A stretch of 64,000 nt of DNA from Chelativorans alearensis (lineage in GTDB: Bacteria; Pseudomonadota; Alphaproteobacteria; Rhizobiales; Rhizobiaceae): positions 186,001 to 250,000 of the forward strand of contig NZ_WQNI01000003.1 of assembly GCF_010993735.1 (NCBI RefSeq). The letters are read 5' to 3'. Made by a program: the position numbers and the translations under genes. Under the pieces are notes generated by a model that ran no database searches, had not been told where the DNA came from, and was given only the letters and a program-made list of their open reading frames with translations. Below, one piece after another: positions 43,111 through 49,635 of the stretch; the first letter of the stretch is position 1; every line of letters begins with the position of its first letter.

Positions 43111-44195
43111 GCGAAGTCGCCGCCCGCCCGGTGCACAGCGCCATACTCCAGTTCCTCACCCGTCGTCGCGGCAGGACTCGGGCGGACTGGACCGACTGGC
43201 TCACCTACGCCTATCTGTTCGTCGGCCTGGCCGTGATGTTCGCCCCGGTGCTCTGGGTCGTGCTCTCCTCCTTCAAGACGCCGGTCAACCTGGTGGAATT
43301 CCCGCCCACCTTCCTGCCCTACGCAGTCGAGACGGTGGAGGTGGAAGGCTTCGACGAGCCGCTTCCCCTCTACGAGGTCGCCACCGAGGAGGGCGAGACG
43401 CGCCTTTTGGCGCAAATCCGCCGCGTCGGCCTCAACGCGCAGATGATCGATCCGGCAAAGCCGGAAGCCGGGCGGGTCGTGGTGGCGGTGGCGGACGCCA
43501 AGCCGGTGCGGCACATCCAGTTCTACTGGGGGAACTATGCGCAGCTCCTCTCCACCTCGGGATCCAACCTGTGGCTCTATGTCTACAATTCTCTGTTCAT
43601 CACCGTGGTCGCCACCCTGATCACCGTGGTGATGAACTCCATGGCCGCCTTCGCGCTGGCGAAATACCGCTTCAAGGGCAATACGCTCGCCCTCGTCGCC
43701 ATCCTGATGACGCTGATGATCCCACCAACGGTGGTGCTCGTTCCCACCTACCTGATCGTTGCTCAGCTTGGCCTCGTCGGCAATCTCTGGGGTGTCATCC
43801 TGCCCACGGTGGCAACACCCACCGGCGTCTTCCTGCTGCGGCAGTACATGCTCACCATCCCCGACGAGCTGATCGAGGCCGCGCGTATGGATCACGCCAG
43901 CGAATGGCGCATCTACTGGCGCATCGTGCTGCCGCTTTCGGCGCCCGCGCTCGCCGTAGTGGCGATCTTCTCCATCCTGTCGCGCTGGAACGACTTCCTG
44001 CTGCCGCTGGTCGTGCTCAACCGGCGCGAGGTCTTCACGCTGCAACTGGCGCTCGCCTCCTTCCAGGACGAGAACCAGATCCATTACGACCAGCTTCTGG
44101 CGATGACGACGCTGACGGCTCTGCCGCTCGCCTTCGCCTTTATCTTCCTGCAGCGCTACATCGCCAGTGGCATCGCCTCGACCGGGATCAAGTGA
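43107..44195 (+). CDS. Sugar ABC transporter permease, MalG type (cluster 1)
   Basis: A 362-residue permease. The first helix is YLFVGLAVMFAPVLWVVLSS. An unusually long periplasmic insertion (~residues 60-150, with PTFLPYAVETVEVEGFDEPL) follows before the five-helix core. The EAA loop is EAARMDHASEWRIYWRIVLP. It overlaps the upstream permease by 4 bases. The open frame runs 128 codons further upstream, but that part is a shadow of the preceding gene. Bases 43869-44136 recur as a partial copy at 49107-49374. Confidence 0.9.
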   Translation: MSEVAARPVHSAILQFLTRRRGRTRADWTDWLTYAYLFVGLAVMFAPVLWVVLSSFKTPVNLVEFPPTFLPYAVETVEVEGFDEPLPLYEVATEEGETRLLAQIRRVGLNAQMIDPAKPEAGRVVVAVADAKPVRHIQFYWGNYAQLLSTSGSNLWLYVYNSLFITVVATLITVVMNSMAAFALAKYRFKGNTLALVAILMTLMIPPTVVLVPTYLIVAQLGLVGNLWGVILPTVATPTGVFLLRQYMLTIPDELIEAARMDHASEWRIYWRIVLPLSAPALAVVAIFSILSRWNDFLLPLVVLNRREVFTLQLALASFQDENQIHYDQLLAMTTLTALPLAFAFIFLQRYIASGIASTGIK

Positions 44196-45298: not shown

Positions 45299-45748
45299 AG
45301 AGGGGCGGGAAAGTCGTATCTGCCAACCATAGAACGGCAGCTTGGGGAAATCGTGAAGGCTACGAGTTTGTTTCGGCCGAGGCTCTTATCGCGGCTGGAT
45401 GAAAGTTCAGTGCCAGGTCACTCGAACCGCTGCACGGCACGGCACGGCGGGGCTCGGCACGCTGTTCGACCCGGGATCGCAGCGAACTACCAGCGGCCTG
45501 ATCGCTATCCCGCTGGTGAAGCATTCCCACGCCTTGGTTACAACGACAGCACTGTAAGGCCGACTAGGTCCAAGAAGGGTGAGCGCATCATCCGGACGAC
45601 GAACTGGCTGAGGGTGCTGGATGACGGCTTCGTAGCGCAACCTGGCGGCCTGAACACACTCACGCAGGCGTTGGGGCCGGATTACCCGGAGCATCACTTC
45701 GAGGGCCGGGTGATCGTGCAGGCTGGGCCGCATGCCGCGTGTCGGGAT
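45299..45748. other. Interval after the transporter operon, no supportable gene
   Basis: Open frames exist on both strands, but none resembles a known protein. A short GC repeat (GGCACGGCACGGC) occurs near 45435. The stretch probably is decayed mobile-element DNA leading into the IS110 remnant. Confidence 0.45.
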
Positions 45749-45925
45749 GAGGCGGGCGGTCAGGGCGTCGAGCCGGTGATGGGCTTGCTTGAGCTGCCGG
45801 TTCACCAGCCGGATGCGCGCAATGAGCGTGGCAATATGGGCGCTGGCGGCCTCGATCGTCCCGGGGGCGACCTTAACGGGCGGCGCGCGCAGTACGTCGA
45901 GCACATGGGCGGCATCGAAGAGGCC
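45749..45925 (-). pseudogene. IS110 family transposase, internal fragment
   Basis: About 59 residues typical of the middle of an IS110-type transposase: GLFDAAHVLDVLRAPPVKVA, PGTIEAASAHIATLIARIRL, VNRQLKQAHHRLDALTARL. Neither the DEDD N-terminal catalytic part nor the C-terminal serine domain is present. Flanking codons in the same frame are low-complexity and unrelated. Confidence 0.65.
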
Positions 45926-46088
45926 GCGGATGGCCATGATGATTGGCATGGTGCCGGTTATCATGACGATCGTCGGCGGCGCCGACACCGGCGTTATGGT
46001 CACCATGGCGGCGGTGATGATGACGATCATGCCGATGATGTTGGTGGCGCGGTACTTGTTGCTCCCTTTGCCGGAAAGGGAAAAATCC

Positions 46089-46121
46089 TAACTCACGCGT
46101 ATATGAAATACGGAAAAGTTA
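46089..46121. promoter_or_regulatory. Operator dyad 1 of the HipA-like gene
   Basis: A 33-bp dyad of the form TAACT-N4-CGTAT-N5-ATACG-N4-AGTTA. All four arms pair perfectly. It ends 7 bases before the -35 box. A second copy of the same dyad lies at 46152-46184, 63 bp away centre to centre (about six helical turns). Confidence 0.7.
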
Positions 46122-46128
46122 TAAATCC

Positions 46129-46157
46129 TTGACATTTGGGATGGAAAATTGTAACTT
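46129..46157 (+). promoter_or_regulatory. Sigma70-type promoter of the HipA-like gene
   Basis: TTGACA (46129-46134), exactly 17 bases, then TAACTT (46152-46157). The -35 is consensus; the -10 is acceptable. Transcription would start near 46164. The -10 box is inside the second operator dyad, so occupancy would shut the promoter. Confidence 0.65.
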
Positions 46158-46184
46158 TCCCGTATGTGAAATACGCGAAAGTTA
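46152..46184. promoter_or_regulatory. Operator dyad 2, covering the -10 box and start codon
   Basis: The second copy of TAACT-N4-CGTAT-N5-ATACG-N4-AGTTA; here the outer arms extend to TTGTAACTTT and AAAGTTACAA. It covers the -10 box, the probable transcription start and the first codons of the HipA-like gene (GTG at 46166). Confidence 0.7.
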
Positions 46185-48025
46185 CAAAATTGCTCTATCT
46201 CGTTGGCGAAAACCTCGACAAGACCCGCGCCCACTATCAGGCCGAAACCGGCAAGATCGTGCAGCTCATGCGCGGCGTTTATGTCGATGCCGACGCCAAT
46301 GCCGATGCCGACGTGCTGCGGTACGCCATCCGGATCGCCCGCTATCTCTATCCGCGCGCCTATCTTTCCGCCGCCAGCGCCGTCCTGCTCGCGCCGACGC
46401 GCGATGGCCGGCTCTTCATCAGCGGGCCACGCAACCAGCGCACCCGGATCAGGACCCTGGAAATCATCCAGAACACTGCGCCCGATCATCCGGCGACTGC
46501 TAGCGCCACGATCGATGACGGCATGGGTGAATTCCGGACCAATGTCTCGTCCGTGCGCCAGCGCTTTCTCGAAGCCTTTCGTCTGCGCAGCGAACACGCC
46601 GCTTCGATCGACGAGGCAATGCGCGCCGATATCGCGCAGCGGTTGGTTGCCGAATATGGCAACCCAAAAGCCGCCGCTGACGCGCTCTGGACGCTGGCCC
46701 GTGAGAACCAGTGGTATCGCGAGGGCGAGCAGGCAGAGCGCTATCTGCTGCGCACCCCGGCAGAGATCGAGGTTCGCAACGAAGCGGCGCTTGATTTTGT
46801 CGTCGCCTGGCACGGAACCCACATCGGGCATCTGTTGTACGACGGCTTTGAATGGCGCTGGAAACCGGACAAAGGGTTCGATCTCCCGCTGATCCAGCAG
46901 CGCGTTCCTGGCAAGCTGCCGCCCTTCATTCTCTCCCTGCTGCCTGAGGGATGGCTGGAGCGCGTCCTCAAGAAAACTGACGAGCGCGCCGTTCTGCGCT
47001 CGGGCAAGCGCTATATGTCGAATATCACCATCAGCACCAAGACTGCCGATCTTGACGCCTTGCCGGCCGATATCCTGGTCAGCCGTCTGCAGGATTTCAA
47101 CGCCGGCGATATCTTCACCGGCATCTATGCCGGACCGAGCCGCGGAGATATCGAGCAGAGCTTCGAAGAGAAGCTGGCGCGTCTTTATGCCAGCGCCGAT
47201 ACGCCGCGTCTTTCCGGAGTGCAGATCAAGGCCCCGATGTTCCTCGGCGAAGACGGAAAGCTCGTTCCCAGTACCGGGCTGCCCTTCACGCACATCCTCA
47301 AACCCGCCGGGACCAGTGGCTTTCAGGCGCTGCCGGTAATCGAGTATCTCGCCATGGCGCTCGGTCGCCATGCCGGGTTCGACGCGCCGCAAACAGCGCT
47401 GACCGCCATGCCGGACGGGATGCCGCCGGCGTTGATCGTCGAGCGCTTCGACATTCGCACTTCCGCCGATGACAAGCGGCGCCTTGCGCTCGAAGATTTG
47501 TGCTCGGTCCTCGATCTTCCCCCCGACGCCAAGTATAGCGGCACGATCGAGCGGATCGCACGCGCCGTGCGCCCGCTTTCGACCGACCCCGAAGCCGATC
47601 TGCTTCTCGTCCTGAAGCGGGCGCTGTTTGCCTGGCTGATTGCCGACGGTGATATGCACCTGAAAAATCTCGCGCTGCTCAAGATTGCGCAGCCCGGCGC
47701 GCGCAGCTTTGAGACCGTGCAGCTCGCACCGCTGTATGACGCGGTCACCACCGTCGTCTTTCTGGGCCTCGAACATGATCGCATGGCCCTGAAGATCAAT
47801 GGCAAGGATGATCGTCTGCGCCGCTCCGACTTCCTCAAGATGGCGGCAACCGCGGGACTAGCTGCGAGGGCGGCGAACCGGGCGATCGACGAGATGCTTG
47901 CCGGACTTGGCGCTGGTGTCGAGGCGGTTACCGTTCCGGATGTCTCCGGTATCGACGAAGACATTGCAGGCAAGGCCGAGCAGATGCTCACGCTGTGCCG
48001 CGAGCGCGTCGGCGGCTTTGATTGA
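46166..48025 (+). CDS. HipA-type kinase fused to an AbiEi-like N-terminal domain
   Basis: About 619 residues. Residues ~1-95 resemble AbiEi-type antitoxin winged-helix regions (TKLLYLVGENLDKTRAHYQA, GKIVQLMRGVYVD, YLYPRAYLSAASAVLLAPTR, DGRLFISGPRNQRTRIRTLE). A helical linker follows, then a HipA kinase: VAWHGTHIGHLLYDGFEW, PPFILSLLPEGWLERVL, RLSGVQIKAP, HILKPA (ATP lysine), ALIVERFDI, LEDLCSVLDLPPDAKY, catalytic loop IADGDMHLKNLALL and metal site LAPLYDAVTT. The kinase residues look intact. No separate HipB gene is near. GTG 46166 is chosen because the promoter's start site is ~46164, which would make the mRNA leaderless; a TTG at 46136 lies before the -10 box. Flanked by IS110 and IS5 remnants, so probably acquired. 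Confidence 0.8.
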   Translation: MKYAKVTKLLYLVGENLDKTRAHYQAETGKIVQLMRGVYVDADANADADVLRYAIRIARYLYPRAYLSAASAVLLAPTRDGRLFISGPRNQRTRIRTLEIIQNTAPDHPATASATIDDGMGEFRTNVSSVRQRFLEAFRLRSEHAASIDEAMRADIAQRLVAEYGNPKAAADALWTLARENQWYREGEQAERYLLRTPAEIEVRNEAALDFVVAWHGTHIGHLLYDGFEWRWKPDKGFDLPLIQQRVPGKLPPFILSLLPEGWLERVLKKTDERAVLRSGKRYMSNITISTKTADLDALPADILVSRLQDFNAGDIFTGIYAGPSRGDIEQSFEEKLARLYASADTPRLSGVQIKAPMFLGEDGKLVPSTGLPFTHILKPAGTSGFQALPVIEYLAMALGRHAGFDAPQTALTAMPDGMPPALIVERFDIRTSADDKRRLALEDLCSVLDLPPDAKYSGTIERIARAVRPLSTDPEADLLLVLKRALFAWLIADGDMHLKNLALLKIAQPGARSFETVQLAPLYDAVTTVVFLGLEHDRMALKINGKDDRLRRSDFLKMAATAGLAARAANRAIDEMLAGLGAGVEAVTVPDVSGIDEDIAGKAEQMLTLCRERVGGFD

Positions 48026-48054
48026 CTTTGAACGCATAACGGTAGGGCATCTGG

Positions 48055-48290
48055 GAAGGCATCTCCAGCGCGCTCGCCGGAGCCGAGGATGCGCCGGATC
48101 GGTTGTTCATCGATAGTAGCTGCATCAAGGTCCACCGCTGTGCGGGCGGCGGAAAAGGGGGCGTTGGTTCATGGTATCGGCCGCACGAAAGGCGGACGGA
48201 ACACCAAGCTCCACGCCGTCTGCGACGCGAGAGGCCGTCCCCACGTCCTGCTCCTGATACCCGGCAACGTTCACGATTGCAAGGTGGCCA
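48055..48290 (+). pseudogene. IS5 family transposase, central fragment
   Basis: GISSALAGAEDAPDRLFIDS, SCIKVHRCAGGGKGG in one frame, then after a frameshift near 48155 IGRTKGGRNTKLHAVCDARG and RPHVLLLIPGNVHDCKVA in another. These are the catalytic-core segments of IS5-type (ISL2/IS427-like) transposases. Both ends are missing. Confidence 0.78.
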
Positions 48291-48508
48291 AGCCGCGTGG
48301 TGTGCCCGCGTGGGAGGTCCAAGGTCTGCTCGGCCACAAGGCGGTTGGCGTCACTGAGGTTTATGCCAAATTCGACCCTGACTATATGGCGACGGGCAGT
48401 CGGGCGATCGACAACTATTTTGCAGAATTAGGGCCTGCGTCAGATATCGCGACGCCGATCCGAACAAGCCTAATCAGATTTGCGTGCCACCTGCGTTGCA
48501 CTCGGTAG
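48290..48508 (+). pseudogene. Integrase (tyrosine recombinase) C-terminal tail
   Basis: Reading on in frame from the IS5 fragment: RGVPAWEVQGLLGHKAVGVT, EVYAKFDPDYMATGSRAIDN, YFAEL. This is the end of a phage/ICE-type integrase, with the LGH box and the nucleophile tyrosine in TEVYAKF. Only ~60 residues remain, replaced upstream by the IS5 fragment. It lies 50-100 bp from a half tRNA gene, the normal position of an integrase relative to its attachment site. Confidence 0.75.
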
Positions 48509-48559
48509 AAATTCGCCTGTCGGTTGAACTGAGAAACTTCGCAATTTCAGGAGCTTGGA

Positions 48560-48604
48560 TGGTGGGCGTGACAGGGATTGAACCTGTGACCCCTACGATG
48601 TCAA
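48560..48604 (-). tRNA. tRNA-Val(GAC) 3' half (attachment-site scar)
   Basis: Reading the minus strand, TTGACAT (a 7-base anticodon loop with GAC), CGTAG (3' anticodon strand), a variable loop, ACAGG-TTCAATC-CCTGT (T arm), CACGCCC (3' acceptor strand) and CCA are all in order. The 5' half (acceptor, D arm, 5' anticodon strand) is absent; at that point the sequence switches to a hydrolase coding region. Only ~45 of ~75 bases are present, so it is not a working tRNA. Such 3' halves are produced by integrases that recombine in the anticodon loop. Confidence 0.75.
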
Positions 48605-49064
48605 AGTACTGGTCGCGTGTGCCCTCCAACGTTAGGTGCGAGGTTGCCTCCGCCTCGTTTTCAGGCCTTGGATCGGCCCAGAAGGCCTGCGTCGCAGCCC
48701 TTGCGGCCCGAAACCCATTTGGTGAGCGTTTGCGTGGATTAGCAACCCCCAAGACCTGCTCCGATGCCTACAGGGCGATGTGGAGACCGACCGGTGCGCC
48801 GAAATCATGGAGATAAATGTAGCGCGGCCCGATCGAGAGCCGGTCCAGCGGTTCCAAGATCGCGCGACCGAAGACGGGAAATGACGGCGCTGGCACGACA
48901 GCGGATTCCCCGAAACCAGGTAGATCGGGCGCAATCAGGTAAGCGACCTGCGACAGAGGCGGCACTCCATCGCGAAACATTCGCGAGAAATTCGGAAATC
49001 GTGCAGGAGTAGGACTGTAGGCTTTGATGCCGCCGGAAAGGCGAAGACGGTGCTCTGGGTGCAT
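48605..49064 (-). pseudogene. Alpha/beta hydrolase fragment, frameshifted
   Basis: Segments of an epoxide-hydrolase/haloalkane-dehalogenase-like hydrolase appear in successive frames: FAFPAASKPTVLLLHDF, then RMFRDGVPPLSQVAYLIAPD, LPGFGESAVV and YLHDFGAPVGLHIAL (oxyanion and HDFGAP near the nucleophile region), then after another slip AFWADPRPENEAEATSHLTL and EGTRDQYFD. The reading ends exactly at the tRNA half, so the rest of the gene was lost at that junction. At least two frameshifts are needed. Confidence 0.65.
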
Positions 49065-49106
49065 CTACGGACCCCTTGCTATAACCGTGTATTGCCGGCC
49101 CACAAC

Positions 49107-49374
49107 CTGATCGAGGCCGCGCGTATGGATCACGCCAGCGAATGGCGCATCTACTGACGCATCGTGCTGCCGCTTTCGGCGCCCGCGCTCGCCGTGGTGG
49201 CGATCTTCTCCATCCTGTCGCGCTGGAACGACTTCCTGCTGCCGCTGGTCGTGCTCAACCGGCGCGAGGTCTTCACGCTGCAACTGGCGCTCGCCTCCTT
49301 CCAGGTCGAGAACCAGATCCATTACGACCAGCTTCTGGCGATGACGACGCTGACGGCTCTGCCGCTCGCCTTCG
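49107..49374 (+). repeat. 268-bp partial copy of the MalG-type permease gene
   Basis: This segment repeats 43869-44136 of the cluster 1 permease with only three differences that I can see: TGG to TGA (creating a stop after HLY-like RIY), one silent GTA to GTG, and GAC to GTC. It starts at LIEAARMDHASEW and ends within LPLAF. Flanking sequence on both sides is unrelated to the permease. The stop codon and lack of a start mean it is not a gene. Confidence 0.9.
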
Positions 49375-49635
49375 ACCGCTGGGAAGTCGCCGGAGTCGAC
49401 CCGGCACAGCCGGTCTATATCTTCCGTCAGACGCCAGGAAATTTTCGCGCAAATCACGGCTTCATGCGGGCCAAGACCAAACCCCAAGCTCTTCGAAGCG
49501 GCCAGCGACAGCCTGAAATGCCGCAACTGCTATTCTTCCGCGGCGGTGGGCATCACGTGCAAGAACTTGCATAACTATGATAATCGCATTTTAACGGCCT
49601 GTCGGCAGCGACCGGCACCCGGAAGGGCGATCTTT

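Follow-up and report, generated by a model that had tools for sequence, protein, structure and literature searches.

The gene and the three regions of its product

The locus considered here lies within a 64,000-nucleotide stretch of the Chelativorans alearensis genome (the whole of which is referred to as ‘the window’) and consists of a single open frame on the forward strand (positions 46136-48025; 629 codons, counted from the first TTG), together with two palindromic DNA elements at and just before its 5' end. The kinase gene within that frame (46190-48025, forward strand), the assignment of which draws upon the placement of its start, an alignment of its relatives and its dN/dS ratio, most likely begins at the TTG codon at position 46190, giving a protein of 611 amino acids. 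Across 75 loci of the family, the conserved start is the codon situated just 3' of the second dyad (ATG in 53, TTG in 16 and GTG in 6). No alternative in-frame start lies upstream of it in 57 of those loci, and an in-frame stop is encountered within 60 nt upstream in 64; it is from these two counts that a length of 611 residues follows as the most likely one. The window copy does contain two alternative upstream starts (TTG at 46136 and GTG at 46166), which were set aside because the region in which they lie is operator DNA and harbors stops in most relatives. A preliminary description of this DNA had reported one frame of roughly 619 residues: the single frame holds, but its length should probably be revised to 611. 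When compared to its nearest copy, which is carried by a Hoeflea plasmid, the kinase gene displays a dN/dS of 0.15, indicative of purifying selection; a scan of positions 45300-49600 against Rfam returned no family at the gathering threshold.

The C-terminal part of the protein (about residues 336-611; 47195-48022, forward strand) is a HipA/HipT-type kinase core, identified through its matches to the Pfam family HipA_C (E = 1.1e-40 for the protein) and to the HipT kinases of Legionella. Residue numbers follow the 611-residue protein, and conservation was assessed in an alignment of 50 members chosen for their diversity. In all 50, residues Ser342, Gly343, Gln345, Ile346 and Lys347 of the Gly-rich loop (Ser342-Gly-Val-Gln-Ile-Lys347; 47213-47230), the presumed ATP lysine Lys371 (47300-47302), the catalytic loop DGDMHLKN (residues 486-493; 47645-47668) and the metal site Tyr516-Asp517 (47735-47740), all encoded on the forward strand, are invariant, and the intact HipA-type core claimed in the preliminary description is thus upheld. 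In the Arg-Leu-Ser-Gly stretch of the Gly-rich loop, as read from the alignment, the position of HipT Ser59 is occupied by Ser and that of Ser57 by Arg. Legionella HipT kinases are also the best solved structures by sequence (E = 2.9e-16 for the protein and 2.5e-27 for the family profile); the same profile matches E. coli HipA at 8.1e-15 and, less well, E. coli HipT at 3e-8. In a maximum-likelihood tree of 45 kinase cores, the 18 family rows group together at 100/100 and are nested, at 96/87, in a group that also takes in six further rows (four short kinases with an SIQG loop, called HipT-like, and two of 405-412 amino acids), the inner fork being weak (86/74), the branches long and the program itself warning of false joins; K-12 HipA and HipH are placed elsewhere.

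Preceding the kinase core is a region (about residues 200-334; 46787-47191, forward strand) that resembles HipS and the N-subdomain-1 of HipA. Its match to the Pfam family Couple_hipA (12.7 bits) lies under the cut-off of 22.5, and its best matches in the PDB, E. coli HipS (7ab3_B; E = 0.019) and H. influenzae HI_0666 (E = 0.097), have weak E-values, despite which both share with it a stretch of the form SLxPEGWL. In the alignment to 7ab3_B, Glu253-Gly254-Trp255 (46946-46954, forward strand) falls upon Glu63-Gly64-Trp65 of HipS. The similarity to HipS over the whole domain is weak, at that same E-value of 0.019; the Trp65 signature is present throughout the family, with PEGW found in 76 of 76 members and in four of four added later (80/80). 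Outside the family, EGW occurs in none of 36 two-domain HipA rows, counted by means of a regular expression among 56 rows (the best-match loci of genome searches plus K-12 HipA, with L002 and L189 being the same gene), of which five more were without the motif and 15 without a kinase frame. Three long HipA frames (L095, L097 and L167) have neither EGW nor a readable domain before their HipA part, three other loci (L166, L106 and L108) yielded no frame through the filter applied, and two HipS-like frames upstream of short kinases (L100 and L102) carry Pro and Tyr at the position of the Trp.

Published work describes Trp65 of HipS as wedged by the Gly-rich loop of HipT, with loss of this residue abolishing neutralisation, and also states that it is not present in every HipS (PMC10627512). 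As far as sequence can indicate, the HipS-like segment with its Glu-x-Trp motif is a better candidate for a built-in ‘antidote’ than the AbiEi-like N-terminus. It was this middle domain that the preliminary description missed when it placed DNA-binding or antidote functions and a kinase in one chain; the AbiEi-like part, the kinase and the lone gene of that reading are all supported, and neither of the outcomes that it had named as refuting came about.

The first 195 residues (46190-46774, forward strand), which are presumed to bind DNA, resemble AbiEi at the level of sequence profiles, as had been proposed. In a set of 43 members, likewise chosen for diversity, an AbiEi model of PADLOC was matched at E ≤ 0.1 by all 43 (best E = 2.2e-5), and the divergent L085 copy also gives such a match (E = 3.7e-4). 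A profile-profile comparison of the family with AbiEi proteins reached E = 0.0011 across a single line of 177 columns, with an HH-suite probability of only 8%, as against E = 0.45 for the reversed family and 0.92 for an XRE set used as controls; the AbiEi set employed there was assembled through pattern matching and manual choice and includes some proteins in duplicate. With a smaller set of five AbiEi sequences, the E-value was 0.019 and the probability 2.4%. Pfam and NCBIfam returned no AbiEi match over cut-off for this region, and a sequence search of the PDB returned no relevant match. When similarly compared to PADLOC, the N-terminus of HipH has no match and HipB matches only other HTH models. 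It seems appropriate to term residues 1-195 ‘AbiEi-like’ rather than AbiEi, the resemblance being weak but reproducible; the first helices of the region seem to be shortened relative to those of AbiEi. Searched for by itself, this part of the protein has matches in 6 of 398 genomes of the phylum (three strong ones, all within frames of 618-630 amino acids, pieces in G425, and two weak ones with E-values of 0.004-0.009), and no intact stand-alone copy was seen among them.

The operator pair and the putative promoter

Operator 1 (46089-46121) is an imperfect palindrome of 33 bp with 11 of 16 positions complementary, and operator 2 (46152-46184), also of 33 bp, reaches 14 of 16. The family carries two such palindromes in its upstream regions, with the consensus TAACTTTCCCGTATTTCAAATACGGGAAAGTTA. 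In 1500 shuffled upstream regions a palindromy of 14/16 never arose, and one of 11/16 or more arose 46 times; chance alone could account for the palindromy of operator 1 of the window, but not for the agreement of this site with the family consensus. When scored against that consensus, the two operators of the window reach 40.2 and 36.2 of 41.0, compared to a maximum of 26.6 in 1580 shuffles. A score of 26 is exceeded by operator 2 in 79 of 79 loci (0 of 1580 shuffles) and by operator 1 in 74 of 79 (1 of 1580), the consensus having been derived from the same loci that were later scored; the two upstream dyads of the preliminary description are real and conserved elements. A laxer score of 20 recovers the operators in 75 of 75 and 74 of 75 loci, but is reached by 150 and 341 of the 1580 shuffles. 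The 79 loci consist of 78 of 80 fetched relatives and the window, all with a readable start and enough upstream DNA. Two loci are left out of the operator counts (L071, which is truncated and counted nowhere, and L055, with short upstream DNA); L054 and L066 enter only the score-26 counts and the four-member addition to the EGW count, L013 and L014 enter from the comparison of residues 11-12 with the operator arm onwards, and all four stand outside the palindromy count, outside the 75-locus counts of starts, spacing and co-variation and outside the 76-member PEGW count.

The arms of both operators co-vary: 64 complementary changes were counted in operator 1, compared to a mean of 33 and a maximum of 49 in 1000 column shuffles, and 36 in operator 2, compared to a mean of 19 and a maximum of 29 (again in 1000), with shuffles that ignore relatedness. 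Over the 75 loci, the centre of operator 2 precedes the start codon by 19-28 nt, and the centre-to-centre distance between the two operators is 61-68 bp in 71 of 74 (62-65 bp in 66 of 74; the others are at 43, 48 and 52 bp). The symmetric operator matrix amounts to 40.8 bits. Within the organism's own genome (a draft of 36 contigs), the two operators are the only sites found with up to 3 mismatches, the reversed control giving 0, and a wider regulon was set aside for that reason; the family loci contain no further operator site over a matrix score of 18.

Between the two operators lies a TTGACA hexamer (46129-46134, forward strand), the putative -35 element: in 63 of 77 loci, operator 2 is preceded by a TTG at a distance of 22-24 bp (exactly 23 bp in 49 of these), where about 5% would be expected. 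If this TTG at a fixed distance is taken as the -35, followed by a 17-bp spacer, then the -10 would fall on the first six bases of operator 2, TAACTT, which makes a poor -10 (only three of its positions match TATAAT); a strict promoter scanner found no promoter at the operator region. Protein bound at this position would presumably shut out RNA polymerase, and the layout of the pair is suited to autorepression.

A clue to the residues that may read these sites is provided by four members with Ser-Asp at residues 11-12 (L009, L013, L014 and L075), in which the right operator arm ends in ACGG or CCGG (that of L014 having been read by eye). This ending is found in 0 of 74 other members, 56 of which end in TTA and two of which gave no arm, suggesting that residues near 11-12 contact the DNA; the four members may share one ancestor, so that the association may correspond to one event.

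Neighbouring genes and distribution

A Pfam scan of eight flanking frames in the window revealed no HipB-type HTH, and only a LacI regulator, in agreement with the earlier statement that no hipB adjoins the kinase gene. Nor is a separate antitoxin gene conserved beside its relatives: only 8 of 75 have a HipB-like XRE gene at a distance of up to 400 nt from the kinase (66 of the 75 have 1 kb of downstream and 65 have 1 kb of upstream DNA), in seven cases on the opposite strand. It is convergent in L042, L063, L064, L078 and L079 and downstream on the same strand in L017; in L060 and L072 it is divergent and, as judged by eye, stands at the head of a HipA-like frame. In the five convergent cases this XRE/HipB-like gene encodes 113 amino acids and ends 13-31 nt from the kinase stop; no hipA belonging to it was seen in L063. 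A conserved partner gene of any kind was looked for and rejected: when flanking frames were clustered, none of the 25 largest groups spanned more than 10 loci, and these groups consist of the XRE family, sets of loci that are close relatives of one another, off-frame shadows and a release factor 3-like frame. That last frame (recognised by eye) adjoins the kinase in 8 loci, including L042, L063, L076, L077, L078 and L079, and its neighbourhood is perhaps a favoured place of insertion. A divergent gene for a 747-residue protein, with a P-loop-like GTTGAGKTT motif, shares the upstream region of the kinase in L063 (560-2800, minus strand), L062, L074 and L078. It was rejected as a partner, being present at full length in only 4 of 77 relatives (with pieces in a fifth, L073), and its product matches neither Pfam nor PADLOC models at E ≤ 0.001. 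Three plasmid copies of the family have differing annotated neighbours, that of Qingshengfaniella having a convergent HTH regulator about 250 bp away.

In the window, a direct repeat of 276 bp (43861-44136 and 49099-49374; 98% identical, with a spacing of 5238 bp) represents the 3' part of an apparent ABC permease gene, duplicated on the far side of the kinase. Directly 3' of the kinase gene lies the remnant of a DDE transposase (48089-48508; PF01609, 23.7 bits for a cut-off of 23). A frame at 45353-46132 matches TsiV, a type VI immunity family for VRR-NUC (PF11876, 27.3 bits for a cut-off of 25), but it overlaps operator 1 and may therefore be a frame that arose by chance.

A scan of species genomes yielded 226 stretches coding for a relative, from which the 80 best matches were retained; almost all of these 80 are near whole length, at 60-86% identity, and, to judge from the record titles, they come mainly from Alpha- and Betaproteobacteria. 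Some relatives are found in metagenome bins labelled Gammaproteobacteria, Fibrobacteres, Bryobacterales or Solibacter. Among plasmid sequences, 72 records reach a query coverage of 80% or more; among the 40 matches listed, 38 belong to Pseudosulfitobacter pseudonitzschiae and the closest is the Hoeflea plasmid. Of 385 genomes sampled evenly from the class, five (the organism's own included) contain a near full-length copy, two of which (G065 and G364) are interrupted by in-frame stops. The genome of Labrenzia sp. OB1 contains two family copies (L004 and L023) with slightly different operators. A phage origin was considered and dismissed, since a search of 50,697 phage records at E ≤ 1e-5 gave a single match, confined to the kinase part.

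A proposed mechanism, its alternatives and related systems

The domain order, the kinase motifs, the conservation and co-variation of the operators, the invariant EGW and the lack of a conserved partner gene can be assembled into a mechanism, of which we infer the binding to DNA, the repression, the cis-inhibition, the toxicity and the nature of both target and trigger. By analogy with the HipB-HipS-HipT system, the locus is probably a one-gene HipA-type toxin-antitoxin module, in which equivalents of all three proteins would be joined in one polypeptide that represses its own expression and whose HipS-like domain would block the kinase. The AbiEi-like N-terminus, in the place of HipB, would bind the two 33-bp operators and thereby repress its own gene, with operator 1 situated upstream of the putative -35 and operator 2 spanning the interval from the -10 to the start codon; as the sites are separated by about six helical turns, two bound dimers would share one face of the DNA. 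The HipS-like domain would set its Glu-x-Trp beside the Gly-rich loop and so hold the kinase off in cis, until it is released by some signal, which might be detachment from the DNA, proteolysis or the phosphorylation of Ser342. Once freed, the kinase would act by phosphorylating a target in the cell, which by analogy would be a tRNA synthetase.

Unlikely, though by no means negligible, is the alternative that the protein is a self-regulating signalling kinase rather than a toxin, with DNA binding coupled to kinase activity such that phosphorylation tunes its own expression, and with a cellular target that is non-lethal. A single gene under purifying selection (dN/dS of 0.15), with no conserved antitoxin gene, would be in keeping with such a role, as would the example of E. 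coli HipH, which is reported to be monocistronic and to have targets in ribosome assembly and carbon metabolism; however, HipH is itself reported to be toxic when overproduced (PMC9948734). The patchy spread of the family (5/385) and its carriage on plasmids (72 records with at least 80% coverage) look instead like those of a mobile module, and no other operator was found in the organism's own genome.

There is a small chance that the kinase is inactive while it sits on the operator pair, such that its own operator DNA acts as the antidote and no antitoxin molecule is involved, with autorepression holding the protein at about the number of operator sites. Were this true, loss of the gene or titration by other DNA would free the kinase and stop the cell, and addiction would arise from a single gene.

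Only a slim chance attaches to the possibility that an unlinked HipB-like protein neutralises the toxin in trans, and that autorepression is the sole task of the N-terminal domain. The organism's own genome does contain another HipA homologue (G000:C4), HipB is reported to rescue the toxicity of HipH in E. coli (PMC9948734), and the HipB-like XRE gene does lie within 400 nt in eight relatives; however, the other 67 of 75 lack that XRE family over the same distance, with 1 kb of flanking DNA present in the numbers given above, the XRE genes of L060 and L072 head, by eye, a HipA-like frame of their own on the other strand, and the EGW signature offers an antidote in cis. That the gene is decayed, or mere cargo on mobile debris without present function, is very improbable, the position of the window copy within the 276-bp duplication and beside the transposase remnant, the in-frame stops in two distant copies (G065 and G364) and the pieces in G425 being outweighed by motifs invariant in 50 of 50 members, a dN/dS well below 1 and conserved operators.

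Fusions of toxins to antitoxins are already known; what appears to be new is the presence of an AbiEi-like region, a HipS-like domain and a HipA-type kinase in one chain, whereas in known toxin-antitoxin systems such parts are mostly spread over two or three genes. Among related systems, hipBST shares the HipS-like domain with its Glu-x-Trp, the HipT-like kinase core and a DNA-binding-type part in front of them, but there they are three separate genes, the DNA-binding part is a HipB-type HTH rather than AbiEi-like, and the Gly-rich loop differs from that of the family, which (as read from the alignment) has only the equivalent of Ser59. In hipBA, HipB is encoded by a separate adjacent gene, of which the window has none. 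HipH (YjjJ) is likewise a single gene with a DNA-binding-type domain before the kinase; however, its HTH extension is of ~100 amino acids and it is described as aligning with HipT, which lacks the N-subdomain (PMC8262856). Its N-terminus, unlike that of the family, has no AbiEi match in PADLOC, its kinase occupies a separate and very long branch (too long to be placed firmly), and the NCBIfam model of YjjJ gives the protein 19 bits for a cut-off of 401. HipL is also a single gene with a HipS-like domain in cis, but that domain is described as following the kinase, together with a HIRAN domain (PMC8262856), whereas here it precedes the kinase and follows the AbiEi-like region; a Pfam search of the protein found only HipA_C and the weak Couple_hipA, and no HIRAN.

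The resemblance to AbiE extends from the AbiEi-like region to the inverted repeats that overlap the promoter, which in abiE are reported as two repeats of 23 bp (PMC7319586), as compared to dyads of 33 bp here; in addition, the AbiEi-like region of the family is fused to a kinase, and no nucleotidyltransferase (AbiEii) is seen adjacent to it. Fusions in the RelE/ParE superfamily also combine a toxin and a DNA-binding antitoxin in one gene (PMC11980606), but their toxin fold is unrelated to that of the HipA kinase. No description of an AbiEi-HipA fusion was found in the titles, abstract openings and passages of the open-licence literature. A survey from 2021 described ten Hip families, including the monocistronic HipH (with an N-terminal HTH) and HipL (HipS-like plus HIRAN), and its stated criteria required an adjacent putative antitoxin gene, yet HipH and HipL were included (PMC8262856); its main text makes no mention of AbiE. 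Because kinases with an adjacent antitoxin gene were the ones kept, further single-gene fusions may have been left out.

That same survey states that the control of the monocistronic HipH kinase is unknown (PMC8262856), a question to which the present family offers a testable answer. It would provide a model for single-gene Hip kinases, in which a repressor, a HipS-like blocker and a kinase are combined in one chain, and in which a single purified protein and a single promoter of ~100 bp would suffice for the study of each step.
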